A stretch of 64,000 bases of DNA from NCBI RefSeq assembly GCF_900102075.1, contig NZ_FNAV01000010.1, forward strand, positions 124,001-188,000, read 5' to 3'. Origin of the DNA: Salipiger thiooxidans. GTDB lineage: Bacteria; Pseudomonadota; Alphaproteobacteria; Rhodobacterales; Rhodobacteraceae. This document shows positions 2,803 through 50,747 of the stretch, one piece after another. Each line of letters begins with the position of its first letter. Position 1 is the stretch's first letter. The position numbers and the translations under genes were made by a program. The notes under the pieces were generated by a model that was not told where the DNA came from, ran no database searches, and worked only from the letters and a program-made list of their open reading frames with translations.

Positions 2803-2879
2803 GGGCCTGTAGCTCAATTGGTTAGAGCAGGGCGCTCATAACGCCTTGGTTGCGGGTTCAAGTCCTGCCGGGCCTACCA
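2803..2879 (+). tRNA. tRNA with CAU anticodon (probably tRNA-Ile2, possibly elongator Met)
   Basis: A 77-nt cloverleaf with encoded CCA. The acceptor begins GGGCCTG and pairs with CGGGCCT through a G-U at the first pair. The D arm contains AGCTCAATTGGTTAGAGC. The anticodon stem GGGCG/CGCCT closes the loop CTCATAA (anticodon CAT), and the T arm is GCGGG-TTCAAGT-CCTGC. CAU tRNAs can be initiator, elongator Met or lysidine-modified Ile2. The lack of initiator features and the CTCATAA loop favour Ile2, but tRNAscan with a TilS-identity check is needed to decide. Confidence 0.93.
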
Positions 2880-3383
2880 AGAACCACCGAAAATCCAGTA
2901 AAATCAATGGCAACGTGGACCACCTTAGCGCGGCATGGGTCCATATTGTATCAATGGGTTACGAGCGAAGTGGACCACCGGAATCACGCGTGCCATGGCT
3001 CCACCGGAACGGAACCTCCTCCGGCTGCCAGGCCGAGCACCGCAGCCGGGCCAATGCCGCGTCGGTGAGCGGCCAGCCGGTCGGACCCGAAGAAGGCAGA
3101 CCCGCGCACTATGGTTAGAAGCGATCGATATTTGTTGGCTCTCGCACCTCGCCACCTCCTAGGCACCATCACTGTGGGCGGCATCCAACACGCGGTCATC
3201 GCCCCTCTCATGGCAACCATGAGGAACAGTCAGGAGCCGTGGCAGGGCGTCAGTGAACCGACACACACCGTCACGGCAGGCGGCGCAGGGCTTACCCTCA
3301 TCGCCCCGTCGCTCATGTCGCTCATGTCGCTCAAGGGCATCTCGCATCGGCAAGCGAGGAGCTGGCGGCATGAGAGGCAACGC
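2880..3383. other. Gene-poor region downstream of the tRNA, possible IS21-family relic
   Basis: No convincing gene. GTGGACCACC occurs twice, near 2916 and 2972, separated by about 46 nt. On the minus strand this reads as repeated TGGTCCAC blocks like those at IS21-family ends, so it may be the stump of such an element. A short tandem of GCTCATGTC lies near 3312-3333. Several overlapping ORFs of 70-110 codons here have no ribosome site or recognisable content and were not annotated. Confidence 0.35.
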
Positions 3384-3712
3384 TGTCCTACAAACCAAAT
3401 TGCCCCGGCATGCTACGGAAGCCATGCCAGGGCAGATTGATAAAGAAAGAAACTCTTCAATTCTTACAGAACGCCTTTGCGGAAAAATCTCCGCTTCGAG
3501 CGTTTACGACATAATCAATTCCACTCACTCAGATGTCCAAACCGGACACCGTGGGTTTTGCCGTGTCACCTCACAGGTGTCGAGTCCGATCATCTCGCAG
3601 ATGCAGAAAAAGATAACAAGTTCAATTTCAACGATTTTTAGATTTCAACTCCTGAAATATACATTTCCAAAAATCGAAACAACTGTCGCCCGCGCGACAT
3701 ACTTCTCAAGCC
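3384..3712 (-). repeat. AT-rich structured element, copy 1 (candidate ncRNA)
   Basis: Homologous to 48049-48362, see that entry. It opens with an inverted repeat at 3410-3434 (TGCCCCGGCATG against CATGCCAGGGCA, one mismatch). It contains a short hairpin GTCC-5 nt-GGAC near 3535 and the shared 12-mer GTGTCGAGTCCG near 3578. It is far more AT-rich than its surroundings. Read on the minus strand, the inverted repeat is followed by AATTTGGTTTG, so it could be the intrinsic terminator of a leftward RNA about 300 nt long. A plus-strand reading frame also runs through both copies, but structure is conserved better than protein. Its function is unknown. Confidence 0.6.
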
Positions 3713-3924: not shown

Positions 3925-4141
3925 GACGGATGCGGAAAGGAACGGACGTGATGGCAGCCCACACCCCGACCCGCTGATCCGCGACTGGTGGAACTACGTC
4001 TGCCGCGAGTTCGCCAACGACATACACCTCAATGTCGAGACCGAGGAGGAACTCGACTTCCGTCTCGGCGAGAGCGTGGCCCAATGGCGCGCCAAGAGCA
4101 GCAAGGCGACGCAGGCATGTTCTGGCATGACCATGCGGTAG
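3925..4141 (+). pseudogene. Fragment of an unrecognised gene
   Basis: One frame ending at TAG 4139-4141 reads like real acidic protein, including the segments LIRDWWNYVCREFAND and VETEEELDFRLGES. There is no start codon with a ribosome site; upstream the frame runs into unlike sequence. It is best seen as the surviving C-terminal piece of a gene that decayed or was cut when elements entered this tRNA-adjacent site. The family is not recognised. Confidence 0.35.
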
Positions 4142-9399: not shown

Positions 9400-9591
9400 A
9401 TGGATGAACTAGTTCACCGGCTTCGGGCCGACAAACTCCCTTCTTACAGCCCGGACGGCGGTATGACTTCCCGAATTGACTTCGGCGAAATTCTCTCCGA
9501 ACGCCATGAAGCTGCAGCCGTGATCGAAGCGCAGGAAGCGCTGATCGAGCGCTTGCAATGGGATGCGACGGGCCTGCGCAAGAAGGCCTGA
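9400..9591 (+). CDS. Small phage-type hypothetical protein
   Basis: 63 residues from ATG 9400; a GTG one codon earlier is possible. The sequence MDELVHRLRADK...ERHEAAAVIEAQEALIERLQWDATGLRKK is an acidic, helical, probably coiled-coil peptide. It resembles the small orphan proteins with a hydrophilic head and an AAxxIEALEA-type tail that are common in phages and islands. No phage neighbours are present, so this may be a lone remnant. Weak ribosome site. Confidence 0.5.
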   Translation: MDELVHRLRADKLPSYSPDGGMTSRIDFGEILSERHEAAAVIEAQEALIERLQWDATGLRKKA

Positions 9592-9990
9592 CTTACACGG
9601 CCTCGCGGCCTGCTCTGACATTCCGCAAAATCTCGCCACACCGCCGGGGATCACCTCGCGGTAAGTGCCGCTGTTGTGCATGATGGCCCTGCCTGCCCGG
9701 CGCACCGGGCGGAAGGGCGCTGGTGCGTGCCCGGACGGCAGGCCAGCTTGCGCTCTGGCGCGATGCTTGCGTGGTGGGCGCGTACGTTAGCCAGAATTAC
9801 AAAGGCAGCGACCCGCATGACCGGGCCGCTGCCTGTATATGTTTCGGTGCCCGTGCATGTTTGTCGGTGGGTCTGTGCCGGACTTACGTTGCCGGTGTTG
9901 TGTCGCCGGGGAGACATCTCCCCGCATCGTCTCGGCACGCGCGCGCGTCAGAGCGCGGTGGTTCAGCGCTGCGAGACCACGGCCCGCCGG
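9592..9990. other. Intergenic region downstream of the PAS chemoreceptor
   Basis: Nothing recognised. TGCCGGTG-rich repeats near 9880-9910 give no stable terminator by eye. Confidence 0.45.
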
Positions 9991-11358
9991 TCAGGCCGCC
10001 GTGCGCCCCGAGTGCTGCGTACCGCCGGTGCTGTCCCATCCGCTCGACGCACTGCCGTCGCCCGTCACCCGGAAGACGCTCACCCCTTCGGCCAGCGAGG
10101 CGCTGTTGGCGGCGAGTGTCCGGGTCGCGCCGGTGGTCTCGTTGACCATGGCGGCGTTCTGCTGGGTCACGGAGTCGAGCTGCGAGATCGCGGTGTTGAT
10201 TTCGCCCAGCGTCATGGTCTGCTCGTTGAGCCCGTGCACCACCGCGCGGATCCGGTCCGAGATGCGTTCGACCCCCTGGAAGATGTTCGAAAGCTCGTTG
10301 CTGGCGCGGCTCACGAGATCGACGCCCGCTTTCACGTGCCCGCCGCTCTCGCTGATCAGTGCCTTGATCTCCTGCGCGGATTCCGCCGAGCGTTGCGCCA
10401 GCGAGCGCACCTCGGAGGCCACGACCGCGAAGCCGCGGCCGGCCTCGCCCGCGCGCGCCGCCTCGACGCCCGCGTTGAGCGCCAGCAGGTTGGTCTGGAA
10501 GGCGATGTCGTCGATCACCGAGATGATCTGAGAAATCGAGTCCGACGAGGTCTCGATCCGCTTCATCGCCTGGGTCACGTCCTCGACCACCTTGCTGCTG
10601 CCTTCGGCGGCGTTCTTGGTGTCCTCGGCCTCGCGCCCGACTTCACCCGCGTATTCCGCCGCAGAGCGGGCATTGGCGTTCAGCTGTTCGACCGCGGCGG
10701 CGGTCTCTTCCAGCGTTGCCGCCTGGGTCTCGGTCCGGCGCGACAGCTCGTCGGAGTTCACGCCGATCTGCGAGGTGATGGCGTCGATGGTGTTCGACGT
10801 CGATTGCACCTGCGTGATCAGCCCGGAGAAATTGTCCACCGCCGCGTTCAGCGCATCGCCGATCTCGCAGAGCCGGTTGTCCCGGCCGATCTCGACCCGG
10901 GTCGAGAGGTCGCCCCGGCTGAGCGCCTCGATCCCGCGCCCGAGTTCGCGGATCGCCTCGCGCTGGCCGGTGATCTCGGTCGCGATCTTGGTGATCCGCA
11001 CCACGTTCCCTGCCTCGTCGAAAACGGGGGCGTAGGTGGCGGCGATCCAGATCACCTTGTCGTCCTTGGTGACCCGAGGAAACTCGTCCGAGAAGAACTT
11101 GCCGGCGCGCAAATCCTCCCAGAAGCGGCGATAATCCTCGGTCTGGCGGTAGCCGCGCTGCACGAAGATGCTGTGGTGCTTGCCCACGAGCTCTTCCGCC
11201 GTGTACCCCAAGGCCTTCAGAAACGCATCATTTGCCCGGATGACGGTGCCATCGGGGTTGAAGTGGATCACCGCCTGCGTGCGCTCCACGATCTGGAGAA
11301 TGGCTTCATCCCCCGTGACTTTCTGCACCGTCTGCTTCGGTTTCCGCGAAAACCACAT
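9991..11358 (-). CDS. PAS-domain methyl-accepting chemotaxis protein, cytosolic
   Basis: 455 residues with no membrane segment. A PAS domain lies at about 20-135 ([23 protein letters not shown], then a PAC-like [18 protein letters not shown]). A HAMP-like linker follows, then the signalling domain with the conserved hairpin tip [33 protein letters not shown] near residues 290-320. Probably senses redox, oxygen or an internal ligand and controls CheA. No C-terminal NWETF-type tether for CheR is visible. AAGGAG precedes the ATG at good spacing. No che genes are adjacent. Confidence 0.92.
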
Positions 11359-40720: not shown

Positions 40721-40896
40721 GTCGCGCCACCGCAAGCCGTTACGATTTATGAAGATAATCCCACTCAACACGCGCCGATCATCAACGCGCGGCTTGCCAT
40801 GGGACTTCGGGAAGTACGGCTCTAGACGCGCCATCTGCGCATCGCTCAGCCAGAAGAGATCAGACATAGTACCGCTCTGTTTTCGTGCGGTGAATC

Positions 40897-40939
40897 ATGC
40901 CCTTCGGCTCAAATCAACGGGTCCTGAGCCGAAGGGCAT
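40897..40939. repeat. 15-bp perfect hairpin at the IS right side
   Basis: ATGCCCTTCGGCTCA pairs with TGAGCCGAAGGGCAT over a 13-nt loop, 30 bp upstream of the transposase start. It may be another inserted palindromic unit, replacing the expected IS end, or a terminator with a poor T-tract. Confidence 0.6.
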
Positions 40940-41039
40940 AACGACCCATCACACATTCTCCATGCAAGCTTCTGTTTTCATACAGAGCTTTCACTTCTTT
41001 TGTGAATCCAATTCACATTCAAAACTTGGCGTTTAACAT

Positions 41040-42599
41040 CTATGCGACATGGCGGAGAAGCCGCTCGGAATCATCTTGCTCCGCCACATTTTGAAATTTT
41101 GCCACGACTTCGCTGAGCAAATTGGTCGCAGCAGTCAAAGCCGTCGTTGCAGCGGAGGTCTCTTCAAACATGGCAGCATTCTGCTGAGTAAGCTGGTCAA
41201 GCTCGCCCATGGTATGTTTTAAATCTGCGATGCCTTGTGCGTGCGTTCCGACCGTAGATGCGATGTTTTGCATGGAGTCCAGAGCATTGCGAACTGCGTC
41301 GAGAACGCCGCGAAGTGCGGAACCAGCGTTCTCGACCAGTTTGACACCGTTCGTAACCTGGCGGGCACTATCGTTTATAAGATCACTGATTTCTTTCGCA
41401 GCTTCCGACGACCTGCCTGCAAGCGCGCGAACTTCCGATGCCACAACAGCAAACCCTTGACCAGCGGCCCCCGCCCGCGCGGCCTCCACTCCGGCATTGA
41501 GCGCCAGTAGGTTGGTCTGCAACGCCACGTCTTCGATCAAAACGACAACCGAAAGGATCCGGTCAGAGCTACTTTTTATTTGTCCCATTGCTTCCAATGC
41601 ACCGTCGACCACTTTCATGCCGTTCTCCGCGTCGTCTCTCGTCTGGCCTGTCGCCACCGCCACACGCTGGGCGTGCTCCGACGCTGCGGTCATGACTTCA
41701 CTGATTTCATCAATTTGCGACGTCACATTGCCCAGGGCGTTCGCCTGATCCTCTGTCCTCTTGGCGAGTCTTTCGGATGCCGAAGCAATGCTGTTTGTAT
41801 CTATTTTGATTGAATCTGCGTTTTCCTGGACGCTGGTCATCGCAACCGACAGCGCGTTGACCGCACTATTGAACTCGTTGCGCAGTGGCTCGAACTGATC
41901 CGGAAACTCTGTGTCGATCCGAGTCGTAAGGTTCCCGTCTGCCAGTTTTGTCAAAGCCGCACTGAACTGCTCCATGACATTGAGCTGTTCCGCTTCCTTC
42001 CTGGTCAAACTCAATTGCAGCTCCTGCGAGCTTCCCAACGCGTCGGACAGGCTTTTTGCCTCTTGCTCAATCTGCTCGCGCTGACCAAGTTGCACACGCA
42101 GAAGGTAGAACAGACCTCCGGTTTCGGCCACCCAGACCGTGCCGTGAAGGGCCAGGCGCGATACGTCAAGCAGCAAGCCACTACTTGGATAAATCAAAGT
42201 CGGCAGAAAGAGCGTCAACACCGCGTGATGAACAATGACGATCGCCGATGCAAAGAGAAGCGCGCGCTGGTCCTGCAATATGACCAATGTCGCCAGAACG
42301 GCAAAATAGATCAGGTGGGTGTCGAGCTGCCATGAATGTCCGGACAACGCTGCAGTCAGCAATGGCAGCTGGCCCATCACACCGAGCGACACAGCCAGAC
42401 GCGCGATCCCCCCACCACGTAGCTGTAGGCTGATGGTGACGGCAGCAATTGCGAGAGACATCACCAAAAACGGCCAAGGTGACACACCTGCCATCCACGC
42501 TCCGAACGCCGGGACGGGCGTCAGCAAAATGTTGAGATAGCCGATCAAGCGTAGACCTTTTCCCTGTGCGACTTCCAGGGATGAGCTGGTGGTTTTCAT
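41040..42599 (-). CDS. Methyl-accepting chemotaxis protein with N-terminal membrane bundle
   Basis: 519 residues. Residues about 15-175 contain several close membrane segments with little periplasmic sequence, so it probably senses membrane or internal signals. A HAMP-like region ([41 protein letters not shown]) leads to the signalling domain with hairpin tip [31 protein letters not shown]. It differs from the PAS receptor at 9991-11358. Its base composition is a little lower in GC than the core genes. It directly follows a small exported protein gene. Confidence 0.9.
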
Positions 42600-47518: not shown

Positions 47519-48048
47519 ACGCCGGGTTGCAGGCTGTCAGGGCCCCATCGGACCCGTCGGCATACCCGACAATCCAAGGCCCTGAAACGAGACGCGCCCG
47601 GCCGGATTTCTCCTCCGGGCGCGGTCTCTCTCGATGATGCCAATCATGCGCTTTACGCGGCCTCCGGCAAGCCCTTCCGCGCCGGACCATCCTGCGGCCC
47701 TTCAGACCGTCCGAGAGATACAGCAGCGCCGACAGCAGGCCGCCGCAGCGCGCTTTGCTCGACACCGAACGCCCGGCCGAAGTGGATCCGGCTCAGGGAG
47801 CCGGAAAAGGCGACGGCGCCACATGCCGTCGCGCTGCTAACATTCGGCTTACCGCTCATTGCGGCGATCACCGGAGGCATTGGCCGGCGCGTTGCCGGAA
47901 CGATCAAGGCCGCAGGATGGGACGGACGATGCGTGGACGACGCAGCCTCGCTCGAGGCTGGATCGACCCATGTAAGATGAACTACCAATACAGCGCTAAG
48001 TTGCAGCAAATCGAAAGAACGGAAGTCGGCACAGGCCGCTGCCGATCC
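47519..48048. other. Intergenic region with an orphan twin-type terminator
   Basis: Apart from the hairpin at 47594-47622, no gene, tRNA or mobile element is supported. Several open frames overlap, all low-complexity. Confidence 0.45.
47594..47622 (+). terminator. Third copy of the twin-type hairpin
   Basis: GCGCCCGG and CCGGGCGC arms as after twin A, with the identical lead-in CTGAAACGAGAC. That includes the TGA stop context of twin A, although no twin gene precedes it here. It lies about 75 nt after the GNAT stop. Confidence 0.65.
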
Positions 48049-48362
48049 CCCAAAAACAAATTGCCCCGGCACGTTGCTGAATCCGTGCCGGGGCAGATTG
48101 AGAAAGAAAAGAACTCTTCAATTGGTATGGGGCACCGACACGGAAAAACATCCGCAACAGGTGCTTACAGGCAAATCATTTTCACTCAAACACACGTCCA
48201 CAATGGACACTTTGGGTTGTGCATGACCTTGCTTTTCGTGTCGAGTCCGCTCACCCTTCAGGTGCGCGGATTCCAAAACCAAACAATCTCGAGTAAAATT
48301 AGATTTCATTTTTTGGAAAATAGTTTTCCAAATTTCGAAACAGATGGAACGCGCGCGACACT
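48049..48362 (-). repeat. AT-rich structured element, copy 2 (candidate ncRNA)
   Basis: Diverged relative of 3384-3712. The opening inverted repeat is perfect here (TGCCCCGGCACG with CGTGCCGGGGCA, at 48062-48096). A T:A pair in copy 1 is C:G here, a compensatory change. GTCC-5 nt-GGAC near 48197 and GTGTCGAGTCCG near 48238 are shared. Minus-strand reading ends with the hairpin and AATTTGTTTTTGGG, a good intrinsic terminator. Strikingly AT-rich against its surroundings. It lies in the accessory zone near the integrase relic. Confidence 0.62.
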
Positions 48363-48554
48363 TCACCCGGACAGCATGACCCAAGGCAGATTGTTTCGGG
48401 AGAGGAGCTGATTCGGCATCATTGCTCACGTTCCACGATCGAGTTCCGCAATTCGAGGAAATCGCCCCCGAGGCGACGCCACGCATCGTCGACCTGAACC
48501 GGTGACCTGATGACGTGGAGCGTTCCGGGTCACCGTCAACCCCACAGACAGGAG
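48363..48554. other. Spacer between the AT-rich element and the excisionase-like gene
   Basis: Nothing recognised. Confidence 0.4.
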
Positions 48555-48738
48555 ATGTCTGATGCCCCTGCACGACCCTGCACGCCGCAGGAACCGGCCA
48601 CGCGCTGGCAGCGCTCTGCCGAGACGATCCTCCAGATGGTGAAACACGGAGAGTTGCCCGGCTTCCGGGCCGGTCGCATCATCCGAAGTCCATCAAAGGC
48701 AATTAAGGCCTACGAATGCCAGACATCAGCATTGGAAG

Positions 48739-49796
<1,058 letters not shown>

Positions 49797-49834: not shown

Positions 49835-50322
49835 GACGCTTCGTGGTCGATCTGACTTTCGCGGTCGATCCAGGTGCGGGGCCCGGCGCCGGAACGCCCC
49901 TTCACGTCCGCCGGATTGTAGAGCGGACAGGTCTCCATCGACAGGCAACCACAGCCGATACAGCCGTCGAGATCGTCGCGCAGCGCCTCGAGCCGGGCGA
50001 TGCGGGCGTTGAGCTCGGTGCGCCATGCCACCGACACGGCCTGCCATTCCGCCTTGTTGGGCGCCCGGCCCTTGGGCAGCCCGCCGAGGATGTCGCGAAT
50101 CTCGGCCAGTGGAATCCCCAGCGATTGCGCGACCCGGATCACCGCCACCCGGCGCAGCTCGCGCCGGTCGTAGCGACGGTGATTGGCGGGCGTGCGCCAG
50201 CTTTCGATCAGCCCCTCGGCCTCGTAGAAATGCAGGGTCGAGACCGCGACGCCGGCGCGCGCGGCCATCTCTCCGACCGAGAGATCGTTGGGGCGGATGG
50301 GTTTGCCGGGACGGGGGGGCAT
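49831..50322 (-). CDS. soxR: SoxR, redox-sensing MerR-family activator
   Basis: 163 residues. HTH LSVGEMAARAGVAVSTLHFYEAEGLIESWRTPANHRRYDR at residues 14-53. A dimerisation helix follows, then the [2Fe-2S] ligands Cys121, 124, 126 and 132 in CIGCGCLSMETC, the exact SoxR spacing. Oxidation by redox-cycling drugs or nitric oxide activates it. ATG 50322 is the first in-frame start after the SoxR box. A perfect SoxR box lies 12 bp from the start and faces a divergent small gene. Confidence 0.95.
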   Translation of the reverse strand: MPPRPGKPIRPNDLSVGEMAARAGVAVSTLHFYEAEGLIESWRTPANHRRYDRRELRRVAVIRVAQSLGIPLAEIRDILGGLPKGRAPNKAEWQAVSVAWRTELNARIARLEALRDDLDGCIGCGCLSMETCPLYNPADVKGRSGAGPRTWIDRESQIDHEAS

Positions 50323-50672: not shown

Positions 50673-50747
50673 TGGTGGGTGATGAGGGATTTGAACCCCC
50701 GACATCTTCGATGTGAACGAAGCGCTCTACCACTGAGCTAATCACCC
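50673..50747 (-). tRNA. tRNA-Val (CAC anticodon)
   Basis: 75 nt with CCA. Same acceptor as the UAC gene (GGGTGAT/ATCACCC), anticodon stem CTTCG/CGAAG and loop TTCACAT (anticodon CAC), T arm GGGGG-TTCAAAT-CCCTC. It differs from tRNA-Val(UAC) in few positions, so the two are probably a duplication. Confidence 0.95.

Follow-up and report, generated by a model that had tools for sequence, protein, structure and literature searches.

Many known phage regulatory RNAs come from a few model hosts. OOP (77 nt) and aQ (220 nt) of lambda and sar of P22 (68/69 nt) are described as phage antisense RNAs (PMC12197685). STnc6030 of the Salmonella prophage BTP1 is presented as a ncRNA that is read against phage genes and excludes superinfecting phage; its predicted length is 786 nt and it is antisense to tailspike and injection genes (PMC7067206). 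GOLLD and ROOL are presented as large ornate, structured bacterial RNAs (PMC12286853).

The element described here occurs twice in a window of 64,000 nt (the whole stretch of DNA analysed) and once in each of two phage contigs. We regard it, with moderate confidence, as a probable free-standing phage sRNA gene read against the int operon. Its homology, exact length, constraint, non-coding character, phage context and hairpin potential above chance were established by comparing sequences.

The element, its relatives and its conservation

Two stretches of the window, 3384-3712 and 48049-48362, had been aligned over about 320 nt in the earlier note. Their homology was borne out and their extent reduced to 308 nt: positions 3392-3699 and 48053-48360 form a gapless alignment with 203 identical positions, corresponding to a divergence of 34% without any indel. 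Similarity drops to near-random beyond both ends, and the edges are sharp.

3392..3699, minus strand: copy 1 of the element (minus-strand offset o = 3700 - position); 203/308 identical to copy 2
48053..48360, minus strand: copy 2 of the element (minus-strand offset o = 48361 - position); 296/308 identical to phage contig L020 and 295/308 to phage contig L021
3577-3588: invariant 12-mer, GTGTCGAGTCCG on the plus strand and CGGACTCGACAC on the minus strand; copy 2 equivalent at 48238-48249

BLAST searches of the host genome (68 contigs, 5.87 Mb) returned copies 1 and 2 as the only full-length matches (E 4.8e-23 for the pair); the remaining five, at E up to 10, did not exceed 28 nt and were discounted as chance or unrelated. 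The surroundings are GC-rich, as the earlier note had stated: the element has 45-46% GC, compared with 63-66% in the flanks and 66.6% in the whole window, and both copies are among the few window stretches below 50% GC. Another such stretch (40801-41200) lies at the end of a minus-strand chemotaxis receptor gene. The landmarks pointed out previously were all recovered, namely the opening inverted repeat with a compensatory T:A to C:G change (12 bp, loop of 10), the GTCC-5 nt-GGAC hairpin in both copies and the shared 12-mer. Since the inverted repeat, the GTCC-5 nt-GGAC motif, the 12-mer and the double change are present together with the full-length BLAST pair, the element is a real homologous one and not a chance likeness.

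Around the 12-mer, 28 nt of copy 1 (3578-3606) match G000:C42:37473-37500 at 93%. The matched gene, which we take to be Tad pilus-like, is conserved in this genus and was also found in two other genus genomes; the plus strand of copy 1 would be antisense to it, as the frame was read. This match (E ~9e-4 for one genome; copy 2 has none there at E 0.01) is probably due to chance.

A degenerate pattern made from one conserved block retrieved three viral contigs from IMG/VR, two of which, L020 (11,557 bp) and L021 (a 33,000-bp contig, of which 6,206 bases were analysed), carry full-length gapless 308-nt homologues. Over the 308 nt, copy 2 is identical to L020 at 296 positions and to L021 at 295, and the two viral sequences agree with each other at 307; copy 1 agrees with L020 at 209 and with L021 at 208. 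At 168 consecutive positions, copy 2, L020 and L021 do not differ at all. These three are near-identical and copy 1 has 203-209 of 308 positions in common with each of them, so the four sequences amount to two effective lineages.

Searches for more members returned no further copy in the following sets. DNA searches with either copy covered 148 relatives (own genome included where listed; draws overlap), and others covered 394 family, 385 class and 390 order genomes (overlapping draws, own genome included); 20 genus genomes were searched with longer stretches around each copy. The covariance model R1, run against the 394 family genomes, gave two matches of at most 50 nt (E 3.6e-4 and 0.07). 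Matches of 50 nt or less were set aside as chance or unrelated, a full-length relative scoring 1e-22 or better; they fell in 6 other genomes for one copy and 3 for the other in the search of 148 relatives, and in 2 in the DNA search of 394 family genomes, and the sequences inspected were L003, L009, L010, L079 and L080 only. Plasmids gave no match with either copy, and annotated phage records gave none with the L020 element and one of 50 nt with copy 1 (E 0.09). Among the matches listed in pattern scans of IMG/VR viral contigs, re-scored with a profile, only L020 and L021 were full-length; a 33-nt match in viral contig L052 (E 0.009) was set aside. One pattern scan of genome contigs gave no match and another 16, none full-length. 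No element was seen in the stretches examined beside related xis or int genes of other phages (L041-L048, L060-L078). The earlier note had looked to a covariance-model search of family genomes for a third copy: two further copies exist, in viral contigs, and none was found among the 394 family genomes. Our literature search found no description of the element, which is not proof of its absence from print.

Comparison of copy 2 with L020 revealed 296/308 identical positions in the element (96.1%), 93/127 (73%) in the left gap, 153/200 (76.5%) in the right gap between element and xis, 128/160 (80%) at the end of ORF101 and 245/271 (90%) in the xis segment, making the element the most conserved of the five stretches compared. 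Its 12 differences in 308 nt contrast with 81/327 in both gaps (Fisher p 1e-14) and with 26/271 in the xis segment (Fisher p 0.007). The limits of this constraint coincide with the limits of similarity between copies 1 and 2. Constraint of this kind, more than folding, indicates that the element functions as a unit in phages.

Phage and prophage surroundings

On the int strand, L020 and L021 have the same order, ORF101, element, xis and int, with the element 200 nt upstream of xis in both. L020 contains matches to integrase, excisionase, endolysin and tail-fibre, and the 3' part of a tRNA-Val follows its int. L021 contains a match to a repressor, and its xis and int are 100% and 99% like those of L020. 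The corresponding features of the window are as follows.

47766..48832, plus strand: prophage remnant with copy 2 (end of ORF101, element, xis, start of int), 86% identical to L020
48562..48832, plus strand: broken xis of the remnant, with single-base gaps (frameshifted) and an early stop
49717..49768: tRNA-Val 3' part common to L020, likely attachment core; 52 nt, 98%
49721-49796: tRNA-Val
2803..2879, plus strand: tRNA-Met beside copy 1, which lies 512 nt after it
3162..3329, plus strand: C-5 cytosine methylase-like gene fragment of 56 codons (tblastn 73%; the full protein in genome G008 has PF00145)
3962..4119, plus strand: gene fragment of 158 nt, 92% identical to a gene that precedes an integrase on contig C30, which belongs to the host genome too

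Based on the 86% identity to L020 and the 52-nt tRNA-Val match at 98%, copy 2 lies in a prophage remnant at tRNA-Val, where it is intact beside a broken xis. Copy 1 lies between the methylase-like fragment and the 158-nt fragment, that is, between phage early-gene fragments. The integrase on C30 (locus L247) has PF00589, and contig C18 of the same genome holds a stretch 87% like the C30 region with the gene preceding the integrase. In blastn comparisons of the copy 1 region with L020, no similarity outside the element and no xis beside copy 1 were found. As the surroundings of copy 1 are unlike L020 and yet contain other phage remains, the element occurs in two different phage backgrounds; in both, its minus strand reads against early genes.

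The earlier note had placed both copies in accessory DNA near tRNA genes, which proved right: both lie in prophage remnants, copy 1 by tRNA-Met and copy 2 by tRNA-Val. Its suggestion that they mark the end of an integrative element held for this location but not for the attachment site, the likely core of which lies beyond int. An integrase attachment site (attP/attL) was rejected as the identity of the element, since the tRNA-Val match (49717-49768) is in L020 beyond int, about 1.4 kb away. We also rejected the idea that the copies are the two ends of one giant element: 5 of 9 sampled ORFs between them match Pfam and are ordinary bacterial, and the copies are 34% diverged.

Several observations concern the wider region. 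A 72-aa ORF at 2515-2733 of L247, the integrase region of C30, ends in AIKAAGWDG, which matches the end of ORF101 of L020 and therefore indicates a related phage region without a detected element in the same host. The stretch between tRNA-Met and tRNA-Val (2880-49720) varies in length among relatives, with about 16 kb separating the matching places in G019, about 57 kb in G017 and 47 kb here, and looks like an insertion hot spot. In the region of 49877-50290 and 50673-50747, a SoxR-like regulator gene (annotation from plasmid matches) lies between two tRNA-Val genes, and the second tRNA-Val region has 62 nt at 87% in common with the L020 attachment region. The integrase regions of L083 and L084, phage records named for Synechococcus and Nostoc, have 68-70% DNA identity to L020, which is odd given their stated cyanobacterial hosts.

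Folding, promoter-like and terminator-like sites

The following features were located on the minus strand of the element. Starts and ends of the predicted sRNAs are inferred from the promoter-like site and the terminator-like hairpin.

3642..3670, minus strand: promoter-like site of copy 1, TTGGAA (3670-3665), 17 nt, TGAAAT (3647-3642); 8/12 to consensus, from the alignment
48303..48331, minus strand: promoter-like site of copy 2, TTGGAA (48331-48326), 17 nt, TGAAAT (48308-48303); 8/12, from the alignment
48312..48332: AT-rich palindrome TTTGGAAAATAGTTTTCCAAA that covers the promoter-like site and may be an operator; departs from the idealised pattern at 2 positions
3591..3603, minus strand: small hairpin CATCT/AGATG (helix 1), one double change; copy 2 CACCT/GGGTG at 48252-48264
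3523..3556, minus strand: hairpin around GTCC-5 nt-GGAC (helices 2 and 3), one double change; copy 2 at 48184-48217
3471..3503, minus strand: two-part hairpin (helices 4 and 5), two double changes; copy 2 at 48132-48164
3401..3434, minus strand: terminator-like hairpin of copy 1, 12 bp (helix 7), -25.0 kcal/mol, with a weaker T-rich tail to ~3390, TTTGGTTTG
48062..48095, minus strand: terminator-like hairpin of copy 2, 12 bp (helix 7), -29.4 kcal/mol, with a good T-rich tail, TTTGTTTTT
3394..3635, minus strand: predicted sRNA of copy 1, ~242 nt
48055..48296, minus strand: predicted sRNA of copy 2, ~242 nt

Stems shared by copies 1 and 2 exceeded a column-shuffled null (300 shuffles) on both strands, scoring 258 against 96 (sd 28, max 203) on the minus strand and 117 against 30 (sd 14, max 86) on the plus strand. 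Counting stems of at least 5 pairs, the minus strand had 19 (null mean 10.7; its maximum of 23 was not exceeded) and the plus strand 15 (null maximum of 12 exceeded). A minus-strand structure of seven helices has 44 pairs, 5 of them with double changes and none broken, all formed in 4/4 sequences, although this pairing percentage is true by construction since the helices were picked because they are common to both copies. None of 500 shuffles reached 5 double changes, and slid versions fell to 23-51% paired; the covariation evidence rests on two effective lineages. RNAalifold found double changes in 11 of 97 minus-strand pairs and in 7 of 82 plus-strand pairs, with broken pairs on both strands. 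Folding z-scores were -4.6 and -3.0 (minus) and -3.7 and -4.1 (plus) and did not separate the strands. Inverted repeats were listed once in copy 1 and three times in copy 2; direct repeats were absent from copy 1, and at copy 2 comprised one two-copy 15-nt pair (80%) with one member outside the element. The earlier argument from conserved pairing to an RNA is thus sustained by stems above chance and by 5 of 44 pairs with double changes, and tempered by a structure signal on both strands and by the two effective lineages.

The promoter-like site matches consensus at 9/12 in L020 and L021; in the regions scanned there (9400-10120 and 1100-1850, respectively), a promoter-like place is listed solely at the element's right end, in minus-strand orientation. 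The aligned site of copy 1 falls below the scan cut-off, and the scan lists another one inside the element (minus strand, 3539-3511); for copy 2 it lists no promoter-like site. On the plus strand, none was listed in or beside the element in any of the four sequences. The equivalent of the palindrome in copy 1 (3651-3671) is imperfect; similar sequences are found in L020 and L021.

The hairpin with a T-rich tail is present in 4/4 copies, with a hairpin z of -3.2 to -4.6 throughout; its full form is absent from the terminator scan lists, the scan having a loop limit of 8 and the hairpin a loop of 10. Of this hairpin the scan lists just an inner 5-bp form in copy 1 and nothing there in copy 2. 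It also lists a terminator-like hairpin at 3699-3684 in copy 1 and a weak plus-strand one, GTCC/GGAC, in copy 2, L020 and L021. Terminator-like sites were not clearly more numerous than in shuffled sequences (3 vs 1.2, 2 vs 1.8, 2 vs 1.0 and 1 vs 1.2 for copies 1 and 2, L020 and L021). A minus-strand hairpin with a T-run had been proposed for each copy; the hairpins are there, and the tail is good in copy 2 and weaker in copy 1.

Because folding z-scores do not separate the strands, direction was inferred from anatomy. The promoter-like place on the minus strand, a T-run that follows the strongest hairpin on the minus strand alone, and ends that fit one transcription unit together point to minus-strand transcription. 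The conserved stretch has its left edge at the T-run and its right edge about 30 nt before the -35 box, limits which fit a single transcription unit. Of the 12 positions at which copy 2 departs from L020, 7 are in the promoter-palindrome part; the other 5 fall within the 244 nt that begin at the predicted start, and none of these disrupts a listed pair.

Transcription in the opposite direction would make the element part of the xis-int transcript, as a structured 5' leader or an antitermination-type RNA that controls read-through from the early operon into xis and int. This is rather unlikely. The plus strand is structured above chance too, the element lies just ahead of xis in L020 and L021, and the weak plus-strand hairpin is found in three sequences; moreover, in each of the four copies the outer GTCC/GGAC stem is interrupted on the minus strand by a C-A mismatch, which would be G-U on the plus strand, the only strand on which this stem is unbroken. 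Against a leader, the main hairpin contains one G-U pair that leaves it intact as minus-strand RNA but would interrupt it as plus-strand RNA in copy 1, L020 and L021. The strongest hairpin has its T-run on the minus strand only, conservation is poor (76.5%) in the 200 nt that separate the element from xis, and blastn found no xis beside copy 1. Nor was a plus-strand promoter-like site listed in or beside the element, although a leader could start further upstream.

A candidate phage sRNA gene and its comparison with known RNAs

Read as an sRNA gene, the element sits immediately ahead of xis-int in temperate phages of this bacterial group and would oppose the early operon; its transcription, direction, start and stop, regulation and mode of action can be inferred as follows. 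A sigma-70-type promoter, TTGGAA-17-TGAAAT, TAAAAT or TAGAAT, would start an RNA of ~240 nt, with the palindrome over the promoter as a possible operator. The RNA would fold into five hairpin units and end at a GC-rich hairpin with a U-run. It would act in trans by base pairing or protein binding, probably in the lysogen. The strict conservation of sequence, spacing and loops argues for such a trans role rather than mere antisense overlap. Elsewhere in L020 and in the analysed part of L021, the predicted RNA has no perfect complement of at least 12 nt; L020 has two 11-nt matches. Several points speak against an sRNA gene, among them these: plus-strand stems and z-scores are also above chance, the promoter matches reach only 8-9/12 with a weak T-run in copy 1, and a fixed length without indels at 34% divergence is unusual for an sRNA. 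The proposal of a new ncRNA family in the earlier note stands in part, since the element is non-coding, structured and phage-borne, has the anatomy of a leftward RNA gene and reaches no Rfam gathering score, but it is represented by two effective lineages. We rate it as a candidate new family of a kind already known, the regulatory RNAs that phages encode.

Within a type, the element is near-invariant (168 nt identical in copy 2, L020 and L021); between types, one third of the sequence is replaced while length is unchanged and the main hairpins are kept. It is conceivable, though doubtful, that this pattern reflects a phage RNA family with specificity types, an RNA-based determinant of immunity or exclusion with its own operator-controlled promoter, kept after prophage decay.

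The exact length without an indel at 34% divergence could instead indicate a DNA site, such as a replication origin, a recombination or a partition site, with fixed palindrome spacing and an AT-rich composition for melting. Its 45% GC in a 66% GC genome region, its inverted repeats and its phage location beside xis-int would suit such a site, which we nevertheless consider unlikely: there is no repeat array, the attachment core probably lies outside the element, beyond int, pairing in the stem of the 10-nt loop and in inner hairpins is preserved by double changes, and an origin would not be expected to include a hairpin followed by a T-run.

Quite unlikely is a cis-antisense RNA that solely opposes the early-operon transcript entering xis-int, as OOP and aQ oppose cII and Q. 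It would read against xis-int and early-gene fragments in both phage backgrounds, but such an RNA needs no conserved sequence or folds, yet the element is the most conserved of the five stretches, and the RNA body lies between genes and not over one.

That the element is a small protein gene or relic is barely credible: a plus frame is open over 102 codons in copies 1 and 2, belongs to a 214-aa ORF that in L020 and L021 runs up to the start of xis, and has a protein-level score above randomised substitutions (z 2.35), but two stop-ridden minus frames score equally (z 2.33 and 2.48), mismatches between copies 1 and 2 are spread over codon positions as 37/35/33, the 214-aa ORF has 2 synonymous and 11 non-synonymous codon differences between L020 and L021 (22 and 4 in int), and no match was found in PHROG for the L020 ORF or in Pfam for the window ORFs. 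No frame behaves as coding, and on these sequence tests the element is non-coding. The earlier note was right that one plus frame stays open in both copies, which turned out to be no coding signal; its alternative of a coding relic was not upheld. Constraint at the DNA level exceeds that of neighbouring genes.

The candidate sRNA gene is kept more strictly than the adjoining excisionase and was retained in two decaying prophages. Sequence comparison alone suggests that temperate phages of a further bacterial group possess a free-standing RNA gene. If it is transcribed, its small size and exact boundaries suit it to deletion, relocation and mutation, and so to studying whether RNA serves these phages in immunity, exclusion or excision control.

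Among known RNAs, GOLLD and ROOL have a phage link and are much larger than the RNA predicted here. They are structured, as the predicted RNA would be; in the 64-kb window, Rfam matches at gathering score are limited to three tRNAs, and the best sub-threshold matches (21.0 and 17.0 bits against cut-offs of 50 and 48.5) are chance-like. OOP, aQ and sar, as described, resemble the predicted RNA in being short and phage-borne; they are antisense and each acts on a named phage gene, whereas the element is intergenic and conserved in sequence. STnc6030, from its published description, shares with it the character of a prophage ncRNA read against phage genes, but has 786 nt and is antisense, whereas the predicted RNA has ~240 nt and is intergenic, near xis-int. 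By analogy, and with no relatedness implied, the element may work like OOP, aQ, sar or STnc6030.
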